Of a stretch of DNA of 47,397 bases, positions 1,984-30,929 are shown piece by piece; position 1 is the stretch's first letter, and the number at the start of each line of letters is the position of its first letter. Position numbers and translations under genes: made by a program. The notes beneath the pieces are model-generated. The model did no database searches. It saw nothing but the letters and a program-made list of their open reading frames with translations, and was not told the origin of the DNA. Origin of the DNA: Candidatus Hydrogenedentota bacterium (lineage in GTDB: Bacteria > Hydrogenedentota > Hydrogenedentia > Hydrogenedentales > CAITNO01); contig JAAYBR010000063.1 in assembly GCA_012730045.1 (NCBI GenBank), positions 1 to 47,397 of the forward strand, given 5' to 3'.

Positions 1984-3321
1984 ATGTATCCAAGAGCCAC
2001 AAAGGGCTGGTGTGCGGCGTGCCGCGCGGCGGTCCCCGCCGAGATCGTTGAGGAGGCGGGCGCGCTGGTGTTCCACCTGCGCTGCCCGGAGTGCGGGGAA
2101 CTCGCCAGTGTGGTGGAGCATGACGCGGAACTCTACAAGCGGTGGGAGACCGCGCGCCGTCCGAACCGCCCGCCCGAGACCGCCCAGACGGCGCCGAGAC
2201 GCGGGTGCCCGCTGGACTGCGGCCTCTGCCCGGATCACCGGCAGAAGAGCTGCGTCGCCCTTATCGAGGTGACCACGGCGTGCGACCTGGGCTGTCCCGT
2301 GTGCTTCGCCGACAGCGGCGGCGGCGGGGCGCACCGCCCGCTGGGCGAAATCGAGTCCATGCTGGACGCCTGCGTGCGCGCGGCGAACGGCAAGCCGGAC
2401 ATTGTGCAGATCAGCGGCGGCGAGCCGGCCTGCCACCCCCAACTCCTGGACATCCTTCACGCGGCGAAGGCGCGCCCCTTCAAGTACGTCATGCTGAACA
2501 CGAACGGGCTGGCCATCGCGGACGGGCGGCTTTCCTGCGCGGACCTGAAGTCCGTCGGCCTTGGGTTCGAGGTGCATCTCCAGTTTGACGGGCTGGACGA
2601 CGCGGCCCACACGGCCCTGCGCGGCCGGCCCCTGCTGGCGCAGAAACTGGCGGCGCTGAACCGGCTCGCGGAGCACGGGATCCCCGTCACCCTGGTGGCC
2701 ACGCTGCGGAACGGGGTGAATATGGAGGGGCTGGGCGGCCTGCTCCGCTTCGCGCTGGACCACCCCGCCGTGCGCGGGCTCAACCTCCAGTGCGAGGCCC
2801 GCTTCGGGCGCAACGACGCGCGGCCCGGCGCGGAGCGCGTCACCCAGACCCAGACCGTGCGCGCCCTGGAGCGGCAGGCGCCGGAACTGCTGACGGCGGA
2901 GGACTTCCTTCCGCTTTCCTGCGGGCTGGCGTCGCTGGCCTATCTGGAGCGGGTGGACGGCGCGTGGCGGCCCCTGCCGCCCGCCCTCGCCGGGGTCATC
3001 CCGGGCAACCCCATGACCACGTCCATCGAGGACCTGCACACGCTGGCCGCGGAGATGTGCGCGTGCCGCGGCGCGGCGCTGCTGGAGGAGGTGGCCGGAC
3101 GCCTGCCCGCCAACCTGCTGGAGATGGACCGGGATGCGCGGTCCCGGCTGGTGCAGGAGCGCTTCTTCCATGTGACGGTCATCAGCTTCCTCGACGCCGG
3201 CAACTTCGACCTCGACCGGGCCTGCCGGGAATGCACCCATGTGGTCCAGCCAGACGGGCGGAAGATCCCCTTCTCCGCGTTCAACACGATCCACCGGGGG
3301 GCGGGCCATGCCCCGGCCTGA
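1984..3321 (+). CDS. Tes/MJ0619-like radical SAM enzyme, probable lipid-modifying
   Basis: This 445-residue protein has the layout of the radical SAM family that includes archaeal tetraether lipid synthase (Tes, MJ0619). An N-terminal rubredoxin-like CxxC pair (Cys10/13 and Cys34/37) is followed by a four-cysteine cluster CPLDCGLCPDH...C (Cys75, 79, 82, 90) and the radical SAM site CDLGCPVC (Cys100, 104, 107). The ISGGEP motif, YVMLNTNG, HLQFDG and a C-terminal PDGRKIPFSAFN segment with further cysteines complete the pattern. Tes joins lipid tails by C-C bonds at unactivated methyl carbons. I infer a related reaction on bacterial lipids because the next two genes are membrane enzymes whose starts overlap. 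The ATG at 1984 follows GGGAGGA (1973-1979); longer upstream frames run through the repeat region. The exact substrate cannot be read from the sequence. Confidence 0.8.
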   Translation: MYPRATKGWCAACRAAVPAEIVEEAGALVFHLRCPECGELASVVEHDAELYKRWETARRPNRPPETAQTAPRRGCPLDCGLCPDHRQKSCVALIEVTTACDLGCPVCFADSGGGGAHRPLGEIESMLDACVRAANGKPDIVQISGGEPACHPQLLDILHAAKARPFKYVMLNTNGLAIADGRLSCADLKSVGLGFEVHLQFDGLDDAAHTALRGRPLLAQKLAALNRLAEHGIPVTLVATLRNGVNMEGLGGLLRFALDHPAVRGLNLQCEARFGRNDARPGAERVTQTQTVRALERQAPELLTAEDFLPLSCGLASLAYLERVDGAWRPLPPALAGVIPGNPMTTSIEDLHTLAAEMCACRGAALLEEVAGRLPANLLEMDRDARSRLVQERFFHVTVISFLDAGNFDLDRACRECTHVVQPDGRKIPFSAFNTIHRGAGHAPA

Positions 3322-3922
3322 CTTCACCCTGCTGGCGGACTTCGTGGCCTCGGTCTGCGTGGCGGGCATGTTCCTCGCCGTGCTCGCGAACTTCCTCGCC
3401 GCCCGCGGCGCCCGGCAGTTCCGCGAGCGGCGTAGCGTGGTGGCCACGTTCAGCATGGCCGTGTTCGGAACCGCGCTGGTGCTCACCATCCGCTTCGGCG
3501 CGGGGGCCGTGGCCGCGCCGCCGCATGGGGCGGTCTACGCCCTGCGCGTCGCCGGGCTGGCCGTCATGCTCGGGGGCCTGCTCTACAACCTCTGGGGCCG
3601 CATCCATCTCCGGGGCAACTGGTCGGACCATGTGCGCGTGTACGACGACCATTTCATCGTGCAGGACGGCCCCTACCGCTTCGTGCGCCATCCCCTGTAC
3701 GCCTCCCTCATCTGGATGTTCCTCGGCGCGTCCGCCGCGTATCTGAACTGGCTGGCCGCCCTGGAGACGCTGCTCATCTTCCTGCCCGCCATGACCTACC
3801 GCGCCGCGCTGGAGGAGAGGGCGCTGGAGGGGCGTTTCGGTGACGCCTACGCCGCCTACCGCGCGCGCACGCCGCGCTTCTTCCCCCGCCCGTCCGCCCT
3901 TTTCCGCGCCGGGGACCGCTGA
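3308..3922 (+). CDS. ICMT/PEMT-like integral membrane methyltransferase
   Basis: This 204-residue polytopic membrane protein belongs to the isoprenylcysteine carboxyl methyltransferase / phospholipid methyltransferase group. The diagnostic SAM-binding motif is GPYRFVRHPLYAS (residues about 121-133), followed by a hydrophobic hairpin and the C-terminal LEERALEGRFGDAYAAYRA...FFP block typical of the family. Three or four hydrophobic helices precede the motif, starting with the first at residues about 9-30. The ATG at 3308 overlaps the preceding gene by 14 bp, and its own stop overlaps the next start, so translation is probably coupled. Family members methylate isoprenoid cysteines, phospholipid head groups or other membrane substrates. 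In this operon a lipid substrate is the natural inference. Confidence 0.8.
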   Translation: MPRPDFTLLADFVASVCVAGMFLAVLANFLAARGARQFRERRSVVATFSMAVFGTALVLTIRFGAGAVAAPPHGAVYALRVAGLAVMLGGLLYNLWGRIHLRGNWSDHVRVYDDHFIVQDGPYRFVRHPLYASLIWMFLGASAAYLNWLAALETLLIFLPAMTYRAALEERALEGRFGDAYAAYRARTPRFFPRPSALFRAGDR

Positions 3923-4692
3923 TGGAGATCAGCCATATCCAACCGGAGGGCTGGGGGCTCTGCCCCGTGATCCCGTTCGGGCCGGTGCCCGTCTCCACCT
4001 ACGCCGTGTTCATGCTGCTCGCCTTCGCCGCGGGCATTGCCGTCTACCGCCGCAACGCCGCGCGCACGGGCGCGCGGACCGGGCAGGTCTTCCCCGTGGT
4101 GCTGGCGGCGGTCTTTGGCGGCGTTTTCGGGGCCAAGATCCCCGTCTGGGCGCTGACCGTGGCCCTCGTGCCGCCGACCGAGTGGCGGCTGGAGCACCTG
4201 CTGGTCGGGCGCACCATCGCGGGCGGCTTTGTCGGCGGCATGCTCGCGGTGTGGTGGGTCAAGCGCCGCCTCGGCCTCCGCGCGCGCTTCGGCAACGTGC
4301 TCGCCCCCGCCGTGGCCCTCGGGATGGCTGTCGGGCGCGTCGGCTGCCTGCTCTCCGGTTGCTGCCATGGCCGCCCCACGGCGCTCCCCTGGGGCGTGGA
4401 CTTCGGCGACGGCGTGCCCCGCCACCCCACGCAGGTCTACGAGATCCTTTTCTGCCTCGCCGCGTTCCTGTTCATGCAGCGGCGGCTGGAAACGGCGCGG
4501 CCCGGCGCGCTCATGACCGGCTTCCTCGCCGCGTATTTCGTTTTCCGCTTCGCGGAGGAGTTCCTGCGCCCCCGAGACATCGCCTGGGGCCTCACCGTCT
4601 TCCAATGGATATGCCTCGCGGGGCTCCTGCTCCTCGCCCTGCGCGAGCGCCTGTTCCGCGCGCCCCCCGGGGAGGAGAATGCGGCACCCTGA
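3922..4692 (+). CDS. Divergent prolipoprotein diacylglyceryl transferase (Lgt)-like protein
   Basis: This 256-residue protein has about seven hydrophobic segments and the overall Lgt pattern: an N-terminal GPVPVSTYAVFMLLAF helix, an AGGFVGG segment, GRVGCLLSGCCHGRPT, RHPTQVYE and FRFAEEFLRP. Canonical Lgt moves diacylglycerol from phosphatidylglycerol to lipoprotein cysteines. Two hallmark regions differ here. The HGG motif is AGG, so the conserved histidine is alanine, and the GRIGNFxNxE signature is replaced by a cysteine-rich GCLLSGCCHG. The arginine and glutamate in FRFAEEF are kept. The ATG at 3922 shares bases with the preceding TGA. Given the operon, it may act on a lipid rather than a lipoprotein. 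That is inference, and a second canonical Lgt elsewhere in the genome would support it. Confidence 0.75.
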   Translation: MEISHIQPEGWGLCPVIPFGPVPVSTYAVFMLLAFAAGIAVYRRNAARTGARTGQVFPVVLAAVFGGVFGAKIPVWALTVALVPPTEWRLEHLLVGRTIAGGFVGGMLAVWWVKRRLGLRARFGNVLAPAVALGMAVGRVGCLLSGCCHGRPTALPWGVDFGDGVPRHPTQVYEILFCLAAFLFMQRRLETARPGALMTGFLAAYFVFRFAEEFLRPRDIAWGLTVFQWICLAGLLLLALRERLFRAPPGEENAAP

Positions 4693-4717
4693 GCAGGGCA
4701 CGGCAAAACCGTGGCGG

Positions 4718-4817
4718 GCACCCGAAGACAAGGCCGGCGGGACGCCGGCGCTACGGAAAAGGCTCATGGGTCGTCATTGCGTGGCGCCGGTGTCCCGCCG
4801 GCCCTGTCTTCGGGTGT
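4718..4817. repeat. Nested inverted repeat with GCCGGCGGGACGCCGGC core
   Basis: The arm 4718-4754 pairs with 4781-4817 over about 37 nt with a few mismatches. Each arm contains its own small palindrome around GGGAC, so several hairpins are possible. The element lies between the Lgt-like gene and the small membrane-protein array and may end the upstream transcript, although no T-run follows. Confidence 0.85.
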
Positions 4818-4869
4818 GCGCAAAAACTTCGGCTGCCCCGCCACCGTGCGCGCCGCGCCGGAAACCGTG

Positions 4870-4878: not shown

Positions 4879-4965
4879 CAAGGCAATCTTGGGCGCAGGC
4901 GGGGGCGCTCACCCCGCCGGGCCCATAATCGTTGCGGGAACATGCTGGATTAAAGGGGACCGGAC

Positions 4966-5577
4966 ATGACGGACGAGGAACGGGAACCGCACGAGGAAGC
5001 ACCCCGGGAGCTTCACCGGGGTGACCAAATGCCCGTGCGTGAGTTCCTGGTGGGCATCATTGCTGGGGTCGCGCTTCTGATCCCCGGATGCATCCTGAGT
5101 GGTTTCGCCGTTTTGGGAAGCTATGGGGTGGTGGCAATGAGCGCGGACAGGGTTTCCCCGCTGGACTACGTGATGACCGCAGTGTACGGCGCCGCAAGTC
5201 TCCTCCTGATGATGGTCTGGGCGTACGAAATAGTCCGGGCATTCCGCCGTCATCGTCCGTACCTGGGTCTGGGAATGGTTGCGCTGCTTCCTGTCCTGCT
5301 TCTCTTTTTCGGAGCATGCACCAACATGGTGGGCAGGCCCATTGTTCGCCCCCCTCGCGCAGGAATCCCACCGCAGCGGGAACCTCGTCCTGTTTCTGAC
5401 ACCTCCGAAGACGTTTCGCGGGGGTATTCCGCTGGGGAGGACGCGGTTGCGTCTGCAGCAACGCCCGCGGAATGGTCTGCTATGATCAGGAGGGCGCCCG
5501 GAAAGGACGTCCCCGTGTCCGCAGGACACGACAGGGGCCTACAAGCGTCAAACCAACCCCAAGGGGACCGGACATGA
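4966..5577 (+). CDS. Small membrane protein, array paralogue 1, with long C-terminal tail
   Basis: I do not recognise the family. The protein has 203 residues. A charged N-terminus with the VREFLVG segment leads into a first hydrophobic helix (about 30-50), a second (about 70-85) and a third ending in LLLFFGAC near residue 115. The shared block RAFxxxRPYLGLG...LFFGAC is present in three following genes, which end soon after it. Here the frame runs on for about 85 more hydrophilic residues and ends in an ATGA overlap with the next gene. That tail is encoded by DNA that looks like a copied upstream region (TGCTATGAT at 5478, and the leader AAGGGGACCGGACATGACGG again at 5560-5580). The tail may therefore be read-through rather than a selected domain. 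Confidence 0.7.
   Translation: MTDEEREPHEEAPRELHRGDQMPVREFLVGIIAGVALLIPGCILSGFAVLGSYGVVAMSADRVSPLDYVMTAVYGAASLLLMMVWAYEIVRAFRRHRPYLGLGMVALLPVLLLFFGACTNMVGRPIVRPPRAGIPPQREPRPVSDTSEDVSRGYSAGEDAVASAATPAEWSAMIRRAPGKDVPVSAGHDRGLQASNQPQGDRT
5478..5486 (+). promoter_or_regulatory. Second copy of extended -10 TGCTATGAT, inside the first paralogue
   Basis: This repeats the element at 4870-4878 and sits about 88 bp before the second paralogue's ATG, nearly the same spacing as the first copy to its gene. It supports duplication of a unit comprising promoter plus gene. Confidence 0.45.
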
Positions 5578-5960
5578 CGGACGAGGAACGGGAACCGCGC
5601 GGGGAAGCGCCCCGGCCGCCGGACGCCGGCAGTATTTCGCCTCGCCCTCCGCTCCAGAATGAGGCGGCCGTAACAAGTTTTATCAGGGGGGTGCTGGAGG
5701 GAATGATCCTGCTGGTGCCCGCGACGCTTTTCCTCCTGTTCTTTGCGAAGGCGTTCCATATCCACAACATGGACCCCTCCTCGTGGGCCCCCTATGCCCC
5801 CCTTCTGGGAGTCGGAGTGTTTCTGGCGGCGTACTGGCTTTTTTGCATTGCCCGGGCATATCGCCGTGGGCAGCCCCTCCGGAGCGTCGGACTGGTCGCG
5901 GCCATCCCCGCGTTTCTGGTCTTCTTTGGAATGTGCAGCATGGCCCTGTCTGGCGGATGA
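5574..5960 (+). CDS. Small membrane protein, array paralogue 2
   Basis: This 128-residue protein starts MTDEERE, the same seven residues as paralogue 1, and is preceded by the same ribosome-site leader AAGGGGACCGGAC. After about 35 hydrophilic residues there are three hydrophobic helices (about 42-62, 74-92, 102-120). The closing block RAYRRGQP...LVFFGMC matches the array consensus. Its ATG shares bases with the TGA of paralogue 1. No catalytic motif is visible and I assign no function. A location in the cytoplasmic membrane is inferred from the helices. Confidence 0.75.
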   Translation: MTDEEREPRGEAPRPPDAGSISPRPPLQNEAAVTSFIRGVLEGMILLVPATLFLLFFAKAFHIHNMDPSSWAPYAPLLGVGVFLAAYWLFCIARAYRRGQPLRSVGLVAAIPAFLVFFGMCSMALSGG

Positions 5961-5976
5961 AACGGGAGGAAGGCTT

Positions 5977-6417
5977 ATGACGGACAAGAGAGGAGCGAAA
6001 GAACCCGCAGGGAATGCCGCCCTGGGGGCATACCGCTCCGTGAACGACCTCCTGGCGGAGAACGGCGGGGAGGCCGGACCGGCGGTGCCCGGCGGGATGG
6101 AGCACGCCCCCGGCACCGACTTTTCGATGGGGGTTTTCGTGAGCGTTGTGATCCTGGTGCCGGTGGGCGTGTTGGCATTCCTGGCGGCTGTTACATTCTC
6201 CAGTGAATTTGTGCACTTCGGTACGTTTCTTTCCATCAGACGTGTTCTGCTTGGCTTGGTGCTGATCGTGTTCCCCCTGTGTTACTGGCTCTATCGAATC
6301 ATTCGGGCGTTCCGCACGCGCCGCCCTTATGTCGGCCTGGGCATGTTGTCTGCAGTGTCGGCGGTCTTGCTCCTTTTTGGCGCATGCACCGTGCTTCTTC
6401 GCGAGGCGGAATGGTGA
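5977..6417 (+). CDS. Small membrane protein, array paralogue 3
   Basis: The protein has 146 residues. A longer soluble N-terminal part (about 50 residues) precedes three hydrophobic helices, and the closing block RAFRTRRPYVGLG...LLLFGAC matches the array consensus. I chose the ATG at 5977, 16 bp after the previous stop, because GGGAGGAAGG lies just upstream (about 5964-5973) and MTDKR resembles the start of paralogues 1 and 2. Function unknown. It is more diverged from paralogues 1 and 2 than they are from each other. Confidence 0.75.
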   Translation: MTDKRGAKEPAGNAALGAYRSVNDLLAENGGEAGPAVPGGMEHAPGTDFSMGVFVSVVILVPVGVLAFLAAVTFSSEFVHFGTFLSIRRVLLGLVLIVFPLCYWLYRIIRAFRTRRPYVGLGMLSAVSAVLLLFGACTVLLREAEW

Positions 6418-6495
6418 GACGGCCCGAGTGCACCTTGAGATATGTCTTGGGAAGGAGAGGAAGGAGAGGACTGTCACTGGAGAGGAGACCCCCGC

Positions 6496-6831
6496 ATGAA
6501 TGAAGAGCGGCCGGTCCGCGAGTTTCTGAAGGGGTGCGCGGTGGACATTGGGGTGCTTTTGGCGCTCTGCGCACTGCTGGGCACCGCACTTTTCCTGTTG
6601 CTTTGGGCGGGCACGCCGGCACCCGAACCGCCCAACGCCGGCACGATGCGGGCCGGGGCGGCGGCGTGCGCCGCCGGGGCGCTGCTGGTCTTTCTCTTCT
6701 GGGTCCGCCTCTGCGTGCGCGCGTTCAAGAACGAGCGCCGGTATTATTTCTCGGGGCTCATGTCCTTCCTTCCCATTGCGTTTCTATTCTTCGGGACATG
6801 CCGTTTACTGCCCTTTCTGTTTTCCCTGTGA
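6496..6831 (+). CDS. Small membrane protein, array paralogue 4
   Basis: At 111 residues this is the shortest member. MNEERPVREFLKG again shows the VREFL motif of paralogue 1, followed by three hydrophobic helices (about 16-36, 54-72, 84-104). The final block RAFKNERRYYFSG...FLFFGTC matches the array consensus. The ATG at 6496 follows GGAGAGGAGA (about 6479-6488). A longer frame beginning at 6442 has no ribosome site and lacks the paralogue start. Function unknown. Confidence 0.72.
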   Translation: MNEERPVREFLKGCAVDIGVLLALCALLGTALFLLLWAGTPAPEPPNAGTMRAGAAACAAGALLVFLFWVRLCVRAFKNERRYYFSGLMSFLPIAFLFFGTCRLLPFLFSL

Positions 6832-6871
6832 TCGGATTCTCCGCAGGGTGAGGGCAATGCACCAGAAGAAG

Positions 6872-6932
6872 AGGGCGCGGCAAGCGGCGCCCCTACGGGC
6901 GGTGAATTCTGTGTTTTCGCGTGAGCCCGGGG
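6872..6932. repeat. Single-arm copy of the 1639 repeat
   Basis: The segment shares the GGGCGCGGCAAGCGGCGCCC core and the following GTGTTTTCGCGTG phrase with 1639-1702. It lacks the inverted second arm, so it is a partial copy. Confidence 0.8.
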
Positions 6933-29138: not shown

Positions 29139-29170
29139 GCAGTGGAACGGAACGCCCCAAGATCCCGCCT

Positions 29171-29274
29171 CCCTGGGATCGCCAAGCTCCAGCTTGGCTT
29201 TCCGGGAAACGTGCCATGGACAGGCCCGCGCGGGAAAGACCAAGAGGCCAGGCTAGAGCCTGGCGATCCCAGGG
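29171..29274. repeat. Nested inverted repeat with CCCTGGGATCGCC outer arm
   Basis: The arm 29171-29198 pairs with 29247-29274. The inner palindromes differ (GCCAAGCTCCAGCTTGGC in one arm, GCCAGGCTAGAGCCTGGC in the other), but each remains self-complementary. The changes therefore preserve base pairing within each arm. Confidence 0.88.
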
Positions 29275-29305
29275 GGCGCGTGGTTTGGGAGCAAGGGGAA
29301 GCCGA

Positions 29306-29595
29306 AGCCGTGGCGGGAACGAGGTTGCTTCAGTCGCTCCGCTCCTTCGCAATGACGTGGGAACACGCGTCACGGCGAGCGATGATCCACCACACCACCG
29401 CCGTTCACCGCGTCATTGCGAGGCGGCCGCCCCGGCCGGCGTGGCAATCTCTTGTCGGAAGGGCCGTGGCGGGAACGAGATGGCCGCGCTTCGCTCGCCA
29501 TGACGCGTTTGTGCAGGGGCATAAGGAAGACCGCCGCTCACCGCGTCATTGCGAGTCGGCCGCCCCGGCCGGCGCGGCAATCTCTTGTCGGAAGA
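29306..29595. repeat. Cluster of CGTCATTGCGAG / GAACGAGATGG dispersed repeats, left flank
   Basis: Units of about 45-50 bp run between CGTCATTGCGAG at one end and GGCAATCTC or GCCATCTCG at the other, in alternating orientation. The middle of the unit varies (GGCCGCCCCGGCCGG, or CGAAGCGAAGC). The same family lies on the right flank at 31480-31807. Confidence 0.85.
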
Positions 29596-29720
29596 CCCTC
29601 CGCGCGAGCAGATTGCTTCCCCGCGTGCCAATGGGACAGAATGGACCAAGTACCGCGATTGCGCCTGAGGGACAGGCCGTCACGGTGAAAGGGCCGCATA
29701 TCCGAAAGGAGGATCGTGTC

Positions 29721-30929
29721 ATGCTCCCCAAGAATCTCAAGGAAGTAACATGGGAACACATTCAGGCGCTGGTTGACAATGAAGTCCCGGAAGACAAGGA
29801 GATTGAGTTCAAGCGGGAATTGCCCAAGAAGATACTTAGGGACAAGAGCGCGAGCATGGAAAGCGGAGGAGATGAGGCCAATGCGAAAAATGAATTCTTG
29901 GCCGATGTCTCCGCGTTTGCCAATGCCGGCGGTGGACACATTATTTACGGCATCCGCGAAGAGAAAGGGACTGCTTACGAGATTTGTGGACTGGATGCGG
30001 ACATGAATCTTGATCAGGAAATCAGGCGTTTGCAGGAAATCCTTCGGAACGGTATTGAACCAGAGATATTTGGAATAGAAATAGAAAAAAGGACGAGTTC
30101 GAAAGGGGTCATCGTCCTAGTTATTCACATCCCCATGAGTTGGTCTGGTCCGCACTGCGTTAAGGCGAACTCCAGATTCCATGTTCGGGTTGGTAACATG
30201 AAACGAGTAATGGGGGTCTCTGAACTCAGGGCCGCGTTTTCCTTGTCGGAGTCAATTGCTGAAAAGATCAGAAAATTTCGGGACGAAAGACTAGGAAGAA
30301 TCATGGCAAACGAAACGCCTGTTGAACTGAGAAATGGGGCCAAGGTTATCCTTCATGTTGTGCCCATGTCCTTCGGGCTTTCACATTCAGTGATAGATTT
30401 GGAGCGGCTGAACATGAGTCCGGAGAAATTCAAAACGCCGATGGGGCACCAAGCAGGAAAACGTTTCAATCTCGATGGATTCTTGGTTATGGGCGGTGCT
30501 GAGAATGATCTTGGGTACTGTCAAGTGTATCGTGATGGACGAATAGAGGCGGTCTCCTGTAGTGCATCTGAAGTACCATCACCTTTTCCAAGCCCCAGCT
30601 TTGAAATTATGATCATTGACTCACTAAAGAGATACCTAGAGGGATTGGGTCCGTTTTGCGAAGTGTTCCCGGTTGTCGTGATGATGAGTATGATTGGTGT
30701 ATTCGGATTGCGTATGGAATTCTGGAATGGTGTTTGGTCTGATCAAGAAAAAGCTCTTGACAGAGATGTTCTAGTGTTTCCTGATGTGGTTATCAAAGAC
30801 AATTCGAGGCCTATCGATATGGAACTCCGCCCCTTGTTCGATGTTCTATGGAACGCATTTGGCCGTTCCCATTGTCCGCATTACACAGAGGAAGGCAGAT
30901 TCAGACGCCCACAAAACAATTGCCGTTGA
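29721..30929 (+). CDS. AlbA_2/Schlafen-like protein with unknown C-terminal half
   Basis: This 402-residue protein has an N-terminal AlbA_2 domain (residues about 10-175). EDKEIEFKRELPKK and FLADVSAFANAGGGHIIYGIREE are its signature segments, and VIHIPMSWSGPHCVKAN with HVRVGNMKR closes it. AlbA_2 domains occur in Schlafen-family nucleases, in transcription-regulator-like ATP-binding proteins and in several phage-defence proteins. The last 220 residues match nothing I know, with no ATPase or HTH motif visible. The gene is clearly richer in A+T than its neighbours and sits inside a repeat cluster, which suggests horizontal acquisition. ATG 29721 has a strong AAAGGAGG site (29705-29712). Possible roles are RNA or DNA binding, or defence; this is inference. 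Confidence 0.72.
   Translation: MLPKNLKEVTWEHIQALVDNEVPEDKEIEFKRELPKKILRDKSASMESGGDEANAKNEFLADVSAFANAGGGHIIYGIREEKGTAYEICGLDADMNLDQEIRRLQEILRNGIEPEIFGIEIEKRTSSKGVIVLVIHIPMSWSGPHCVKANSRFHVRVGNMKRVMGVSELRAAFSLSESIAEKIRKFRDERLGRIMANETPVELRNGAKVILHVVPMSFGLSHSVIDLERLNMSPEKFKTPMGHQAGKRFNLDGFLVMGGAENDLGYCQVYRDGRIEAVSCSASEVPSPFPSPSFEIMIIDSLKRYLEGLGPFCEVFPVVVMMSMIGVFGLRMEFWNGVWSDQEKALDRDVLVFPDVVIKDNSRPIDMELRPLFDVLWNAFGRSHCPHYTEEGRFRRPQNNCR

Follow-up and report, generated by a model that had tools for sequence, protein, structure and literature searches.

A bacterial gene cassette linking a Tes-family radical SAM enzyme to an Lgt-like transferase and small Gly-x-Cys membrane proteins: a possible protein-lipidation system

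Genes at the Locus

The window, that is, the whole stretch of DNA analysed here, comprises 47,397 nucleotides from a Candidatus Hydrogenedentota bacterium (assembly GCA_012730045.1, contig JAAYBR010000063.1, positions 1 to 47,397 of the forward strand). It carries an operon that encodes a radical SAM enzyme of the Tes family, an ICMT/PEMT-like membrane methyltransferase, a homologue of the membrane diacylglyceryl transferase Lgt and, directly downstream of these, four small membrane proteins, referred to here as S proteins, each with a Gly-x-Cys (GxC) motif (Table 1).

A first-pass annotation had described the first three genes as overlapping, the second with an ICMT/PEMT motif and the third Lgt-like, and this description is borne out: the radical SAM and ICMT-like open reading frames (ORFs) overlap by 14 nucleotides, and the ATG of the LGT-like gene overlaps the TGA of the ICMT-like gene. 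Pfam recovers Radical_SAM (E 2.8e-19) and an HMPTM zinc ribbon (E 1.1e-7) in the first protein, ICMT (E 1.2e-10) and PEMT (E 7.8e-9) in the second, and LGT (E 1.9e-36) in the third. The second and third proteins exceed the Pfam gathering cut-offs (42 bits vs. 24 for PF04140; 126 bits vs. 24.9 for PF01790), whereas the ICMT-like protein falls below that of the NCBIfam model for protein-S-isoprenylcysteine O-methyltransferase (78 bits vs. 160). The same annotation had the operon span 1984-4692, which is too short; the operon runs beyond 4692, and the related genes S1 to S4 at 4966-6831 belong to it.

Table 1. Coordinates of the cassette genes and motifs in the window.
Feature	Position	Strand	Evidence or remark
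Tes/TrsS-family radical SAM enzyme, 445 amino acids	1984..3321	+	ORF, Pfam/NCBIfam, residue comparison, AlphaFold model
CxxxCxxC radical SAM cluster motif (C100, C104, C107)	2281..2304	+	Sequence; invariant in 71 Lgt-linked relatives
ICMT/PEMT-like membrane methyltransferase, 204 amino acids	3308..3922	+	Pfam; restricted to one cassette sub-clade
LGT-like membrane diacylglyceryl transferase homologue, 256 amino acids	3922..4692	+	Pfam, residue comparison
GRVGC motif in LGT-like protein (R143 kept, N146 replaced by Cys; E. coli numbering)	4333..4347	+	
S1, small membrane protein	4966..5577	+	GxC cysteine C118 at 5317-5319; long post-motif tail
S2, small membrane protein, 128 amino acids	5574..5960	+	GxC cysteine C121 at 5934-5936
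S3, small membrane protein, 146 amino acids	5977..6417	+	GxC cysteine C137 at 6385-6387
S4, small membrane protein, 111 amino acids	6496..6831	+	GxC cysteine C102 at 6799-6801

A Widespread Gene Association

Comparable loci were collected by scanning GTDB contigs with a radical SAM profile; the resulting 80 loci were ranked solely on radical SAM similarity. An LGT-like gene adjoins the radical SAM gene in 70 of these, and about half of the ten others have a contig end too close to judge, the rest being true exceptions. The Lgt-linked loci come from at least 17 phyla (as assigned by record titles and tree labels), among them Bacillota, Pseudomonadota, Actinomycetota, Bacteroidota, Chlorobiota, Acidobacteriota, Planctomycetota, Verrucomicrobiota, Spirochaetota, Elusimicrobiota, Omnitrophota, and two candidate-phyla-radiation lineages.

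The methyltransferase is found mainly in one sub-clade, where a Cys-rich DUF4395 protein usually sits between ICMT and LGT; the cassette of the window has no DUF4395 gene. As for the grouping of the three enzyme genes, they do occur together in genomes G001 and G012, and the radical SAM and LGT pair is found in G002 and across phyla, but the ICMT-like gene is a clade-specific extra that lies outside the cassette core. Clustering of all cassette neighbours yielded no further recurrent gene with apparent specificity.

Small Membrane Proteins with a Gly-x-Cys Motif

The S proteins are multi-span proteins of about 60-180 amino acids in which one membrane helix has basic residues at its start and, close to its outer end, a cysteine that follows a Gly and a small residue. 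Candidates were sought with one fixed rule, on the same strand and within 1.2 kb of the cassette, and a small GxC membrane protein was found beside 57 of the 70 Lgt-linked cassettes. Control searches gave two matches on the antisense strand and one in 43 matched spans located 2.6-3.8 kb away, and a stricter form of the rule gave none in 400 kb of the window's own genome. At 26 Tes-family loci without Lgt there was a single match, which resembles an ordinary lipoprotein; the difference between Lgt-linked and Lgt-less loci has a Fisher P of 1.5e-12, a value that ignores shared ancestry. The association of radical SAM, Lgt-like and GxC S proteins is strong, and these membrane proteins had not previously been noticed as members of the cassette.

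Across 83 S sequences, Gly occupies position -2 in 60 and Gly, Ala, Ser or Thr position -1 in 71, and Lys and Arg residues number 242 before the helix vs. 42 after it. This charge bias implies that the GxC cysteine should face outside, where the Lgt active site is located. When 16 S proteins from several phyla are aligned, invariance is limited to one Gly and to the G and C of the GxC motif (G135 and C137). The predicted structure of S3 comprises three long helices with its C137 in the last. The S genes of related species differ mostly at codon position 3, which indicates that they are real genes. Among 30 related genomes, the S family of the window occurs only with the cassette, in the window's own genome (G000) and in G012; one of the G012 copies adjoins an LGT-like gene, and one lies at a contig end.

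The cysteine lies 5-19 residues from the C-terminus in all 27 S proteins scored from the ICMT clade and close to the C-terminus in some from the other clade; in many Proteobacteria it lies in the first helix and is followed by 40-125 residues. The canonical lipoprotein layout, in which an N-terminal signal peptide ends in [LVI][ASTVI][GAS]C and the mature part follows the cysteine, is not seen in the window, whose S proteins have the motif in the last helix, with Gly at -2. Ten S proteins matched no Pfam or NCBIfam family above cut-off, and a fold search of the PDB gave no match at E 0.001. The GxC cysteine looks like the modified site of the S proteins.

The GxC motif also occurs in more distant radical SAM lineages with an Lgt-like neighbour (L014, L018, L130, L196 and L200). 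At L200 (G323:C1:153000-166000), up to five tandem S-type candidates precede a cassette with the order radical SAM, ICMT, LGT.

The Radical SAM Protein Belongs to the Tes Family but Is Not Tes

The rubredoxin-like CxxC pair, four-cysteine cluster and CxxxCxxC site reported earlier for the first gene are all present, as CxxC...CxxC, CPLDCGLC..H and CDLGCPVC, together with a PDGRKIPF..N block. They form a rubredoxin site (C10/C13/C34/C37), an N-terminal cluster (C75/C79/C82/H85) and the SAM cluster (C100/C104/C107), and the rubredoxin cysteines, the N-terminal cluster (C73, C77, C80 and H83 in Tes) and the SAM cluster are kept in 71 of 71 Lgt-linked proteins. The sole solved full-length relative is Tes from M. 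jannaschii (MJ0619), which is also the best PDB match (7tol, E 5.8e-61), and the AlphaFold model (pLDDT 92) aligns with Tes 7tom at a TM of 0.84 over the whole length, the other structures listed reaching about 0.42 or less. Fold, rubredoxin site, N-terminal auxiliary cluster and SAM cluster are thus shared with Tes (GDGT-MAS; MJ0619, NF045702, 7tol and 7tom). The window's group differs from Tes, on the other hand, in having an Lgt-like partner, GxC proteins and three cysteines invariant in the 71 Lgt-linked proteins, namely, C313, C417 and C90, the last being an extra cysteine that Tes does not have. In addition, His36 of the Tes rubredoxin site is Cys in the window protein.

Further differences lie in the C-terminal cluster region. 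C455, C470, Met439 and Tyr459 of Tes correspond to E, S, I and V in the window protein, and C455, C470 and Tyr459 are missing in all 71 Lgt-linked relatives; C455 and C470 are taken to be cluster ligands because they are conserved in the Tes clade and located in the C-terminal cluster domain. Where these ligands are lacking, the window protein has C313 and C417. The PDGR...PF..N block, which had been recognised as the family's C-terminal hallmark, is therefore only partly Tes-like. Because the C-cluster of Tes holds the substrate carbon via sulfur during C-C coupling (Tes acting, in the chemistry demonstrated, on lipid tails; PMC9433317), the loss of these cysteines suggests that the chemistry of the window's enzyme may differ from that of Tes.

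Family models and phylogeny agree with this distinction. The protein scores 231 bits against the Tes model NF045702 (cut-off 450) and 310 bits against NF045646, the model for the radical SAM (seleno)protein TrsS (cut-off 490), which is its best family model and matches nearly end to end; it resembles TrsS in the length of this match but remains below the cut-off, and no TrsS above the NF045646 cut-off occurs in the 386 genomes sampled. A tree of 106 relatives was built by a quick search with SH-aLRT support only, so that several long branches are unsure, and plasmid relatives with a methyltransferase and no Lgt (L104 and L106) served as the outgroup. MJ0619 falls among proteins lacking an Lgt neighbour (support 99), and the window protein lies outside that clade, in one of 25 rows (support 98), 22 of which have both LGT and ICMT neighbours. 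Its nearest relatives in the collection searched are from 'Candidatus Hydrogenedentota' assemblies, with up to 96% identity. An assignment to Tes accordingly holds at the level of the family and fails for Tes itself.

The outgroup locus L104, on a Mycolicibacterium plasmid (1299-6339), exemplifies a Tes-family context without Lgt: it contains two radical SAM genes and genes for CcdA, a thiol:disulfide oxidoreductase, a PhnD-like protein and a methyltransferase, and its radical SAM protein clusters with Chloroflexota and Methylomirabilota proteins in the tree. Two other radical SAM genes, at L041 (4962-6329) and L059 (1132-2499), each contain one in-frame stop; selenocysteine was considered and rejected, since both stops are TAA and point to damage or sequencing error. 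A role in anti-phage defence was likewise rejected, as PADLOC gives only weak viperin-like matches, to the SAM core.

The Lgt-like Partner: an Apparently Intact Donor Side and a Changed Acceptor Side

For the second core enzyme, 48 cassette Lgt-like proteins were compared with E. coli Lgt, the numbering being that of the E. coli protein (PMC4728403). The phosphatidylglycerol (PG)-handling residues R143, Y235 and G154 are kept in all 48, and R239 and E202 in 47; the E243 position is E or D and the R246 position K or R, each in 47 of 48. The LGT-like protein of the window has R143, R239, Y235, E202 and G154. On the other hand, the histidine of the HGGL motif (H103), which is essential to Lgt activity in E. 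coli (PMC4728403) and whose region has been proposed to bind the lipobox peptide, is found in none of the 48 and is Ala in the window; Cys replaces N146, and a new invariant Lys appears. These proteins thus resemble Lgt (PF01790; 5azb) in their family match and PG-handling residues and differ from it in the missing histidine, the Cys at N146 and the new Lys. With the PG residues kept and the HGGL histidine lost, the enzyme seems to be preserved on its donor side and altered on its acceptor side, which is what would be expected of an enzyme with a different acceptor. A separate canonical Lgt is encoded in the window's own genome.

The same genome encodes a second Lgt-like protein (L108, G000:C31:52523-53233), in which Phe takes the place of the HGGL histidine and the motif GC..GCC.G is present, and the 20-kb stretch around it contains no GxC protein. 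Nor were S proteins seen with other Lgt-like genes that have lost the histidine (L173, L174, L176 and L177), so that the link to S proteins seems specific to Lgt-like proteins of the G[KR][ST]I type. At L013/L026 and L011 (G036 and G002), the radical SAM proteins are 74-75% identical to that of the window and the LGT-like proteins only about 30-34%, from which it seems that the Lgt-like gene has been exchanged.

Proposed Function and Alternatives

The association, the GxC motif, its orientation and the kept and lost catalytic residues are direct observations; what follows is a functional reading of them. We consider the chances about even that a protein-modification cassette widespread in bacteria is present in full in the window. 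The composition of its core, in which the Tes-family enzyme is joined by a specialised Lgt-like transferase and at least one S protein, is put forward with the same balanced confidence, as is the view that the whole is a dedicated system lipid-modifying the in-membrane cysteine of the S proteins, with the Tes-like enzyme modifying the lipid. Within this reading, the GxC cysteine is probably the acceptor, and a lipid tail as the substrate of the radical SAM enzyme is slightly less than an even prospect. Before the GxC proteins were recognised, the expected product was a free lipid; with them, the likely product moves to a lipid-modified membrane protein.

In this scheme, the Lgt-like enzyme would work at the outer face of the inner membrane, toward which the Lgt active site is oriented (PMC4728403), drawing on phosphatidylglycerol for a diacylglyceryl-type lipid and joining this to the GxC cysteine. 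The S helix would present that cysteine in the manner of a lipoprotein signal peptide, with cleavage not being required. The Tes-like enzyme would abstract a hydrogen from an unactivated carbon of the lipid tail, in the donor lipid before transfer or in a tail already linked, and a C-C or C-S bond would result; in the window's clade, the ICMT-like enzyme would add a methyl group. The fullest version of this scheme is a tentative and rather unlikely one: a new protein-lipidation pathway in which multi-span proteins stay uncleaved and receive a glycerolipid from a specialised Lgt at their in-membrane Gly-x-Cys, and a Tes-family enzyme couples an inert tail carbon to another tail, to sulfur or to protein, giving a covalently lipid-stapled membrane protein.

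Several points weigh against the lipidation of S proteins. A cytosolic location is expected for the radical SAM enzyme and an outward one for the GxC cysteine, so that the enzyme must act on the lipid ahead of its transfer, reach it from the other leaflet, or act prior to insertion. The loss of the Tes C-cluster cysteines and Tyr459 means that C-C coupling of the Tes type is not assured, and the absence of the HGGL histidine from all 48 Lgt-like proteins may mean a different acceptor or no thiol transfer at all. Moreover, the S rule was shaped on the same loci to which it was applied, although in the controls the rule was identical or stricter, and 13 of the 70 cassettes have no match under it, some visibly because of its thresholds; several of the 13 have an evident GxC protein narrowly outside the rule (e.g., L028 and L092).

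Two alternatives are improbable to a similar degree. In the first, close to what the first-pass annotation had proposed, the cassette serves to synthesise an unusual membrane lipid that is free and either tail-linked or methylated, with the S proteins as accessory membrane factors. The full Tes fold and the PG-handling residues of the Lgt-like enzyme would suit such a product, and membrane-spanning lipid synthesis has been proposed for bacterial Tes homologues (PMC8941075), which are common and for none of which is a function demonstrated in PMC8941075 or PMC9433317. However, the radical SAM protein is below the Tes and TrsS cut-offs, outside the MJ0619 clade, and devoid in the window of the Tes residues C455, C470, M439 and Y459, and the conserved GxC cysteine that accompanies the Lgt-like gene would be left unexplained. 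A free membrane-spanning lipid is thus no longer the favoured product.

The second would regard the S proteins as precursors of a product akin to ribosomally synthesised and post-translationally modified peptides (RiPPs), modified by the radical SAM enzyme, the methyltransferase and the Lgt-like enzyme and then cut to a short lipopeptide starting or ending at the GxC cysteine. The divergent S copies arranged in tandem next to modifying enzymes (the window has four, and L200 up to five candidates) are in keeping with this, as are the short 5-19-residue tails of all ICMT-clade S proteins and the existence of RiPPs of the lipoprotein pathway (PMC12636315). It fits poorly, however, with multi-span proteins that have no obvious leader, with neighbourhoods that hold no recurrent protease or exporter, and with the many Proteobacteria whose first-helix cysteine is followed by 40-125 residues.

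Somewhat less probable still is a thiol/redox system, in which the GxC cysteine would exchange with cysteines of the Lgt-like protein (at the N146 position) or of DUF4395 and no lipid would be transferred. The invariant Cys, the lost HGGL histidine and the Cys-rich DUF4395 protein in most ICMT-clade cassettes could be understood in this way, but the residues that serve PG binding and activation in Lgt (R143, Y235, R239, E202 and G154) are almost always kept, DUF4395 is missing from the cassette of the window, and a Tes-type radical enzyme would be left unexplained. That unrelated genes lie together by accident is very improbable, since it appeals to nothing beyond gene-order variation and faces an association at 70 of 80 loci in at least 17 phyla with near-zero controls.

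Relation to Known Systems and Significance

A literature search, made mostly without subscription papers, found no description of the cassette and no work joining Lgt, radical SAM and tetraether, in line with the earlier statement that no described system with exactly these three genes is known. The nearest concepts to lipidation of the S proteins are the DAG-RiPPs and the MYXO-CTERM/myxosortase system, neither of which, as described, has an Lgt-like/Tes-family cassette or this motif geometry. DAG-RiPPs likewise involve Lgt-type cysteine lipidation of a ribosomal product that another enzyme also modifies, but they depend on MNIO enzymes and on the ordinary lipoprotein pathway with its N-terminal lipobox, and as described have neither a dedicated Lgt-like gene nor a Tes-family enzyme (PMC12636315). 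MYXO-CTERM proteins have an invariant cysteine by a C-terminal membrane helix that is proposed to be lipidated by an Lgt-like enzyme, but the helix has the opposite orientation, a CPBP protease cleaves the protein, and there is no radical SAM enzyme (PMC11980579).

One large bacterial Tes-like subfamily is thereby matched with a constant partner enzyme and with a protein that is likely its substrate, and its function can be tested in culturable hosts such as Paenibacillus, Brevibacillus, Novosphingobium, and Thiothrix. If the GxC cysteine is lipidated, lipoprotein-type chemistry extends beyond cleaved N-terminal signal peptides. In addition, a bacterial Tes homologue should not serve as a marker of membrane-spanning lipids unless the Lgt-like partner and the C-cluster cysteines have been checked.

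Further Observations

A 55-nucleotide direct repeat (95%) at 4953-5007 and 5561-5615 spans the ribosome site and the opening codons in both S1 and S2, which points to a recent tandem duplication; since the S1 frame continues through this repeat, the original stop of S1 may be gone. Positions 4714-4821, which separate S1 from the LGT-like gene, hold a 45-nucleotide inverted repeat with 87% complementary arms and an 18-nucleotide loop, possibly a terminator or a mobile repeat. A dispersed palindromic repeat, AGGGCGCGGCAAGCGGCGCCCCTAC, lies on both sides of the cassette, at 1639-1666, 1706-1733, 1749-1768 and 6866-6900. Among the other cassettes, L085 comes from a record titled Bacillus subtilis strain DE0224, a species label that may be wrong. 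Elsewhere in the window, a protein with a Schlafen/AlbA_2 domain is encoded at 29142-30929.

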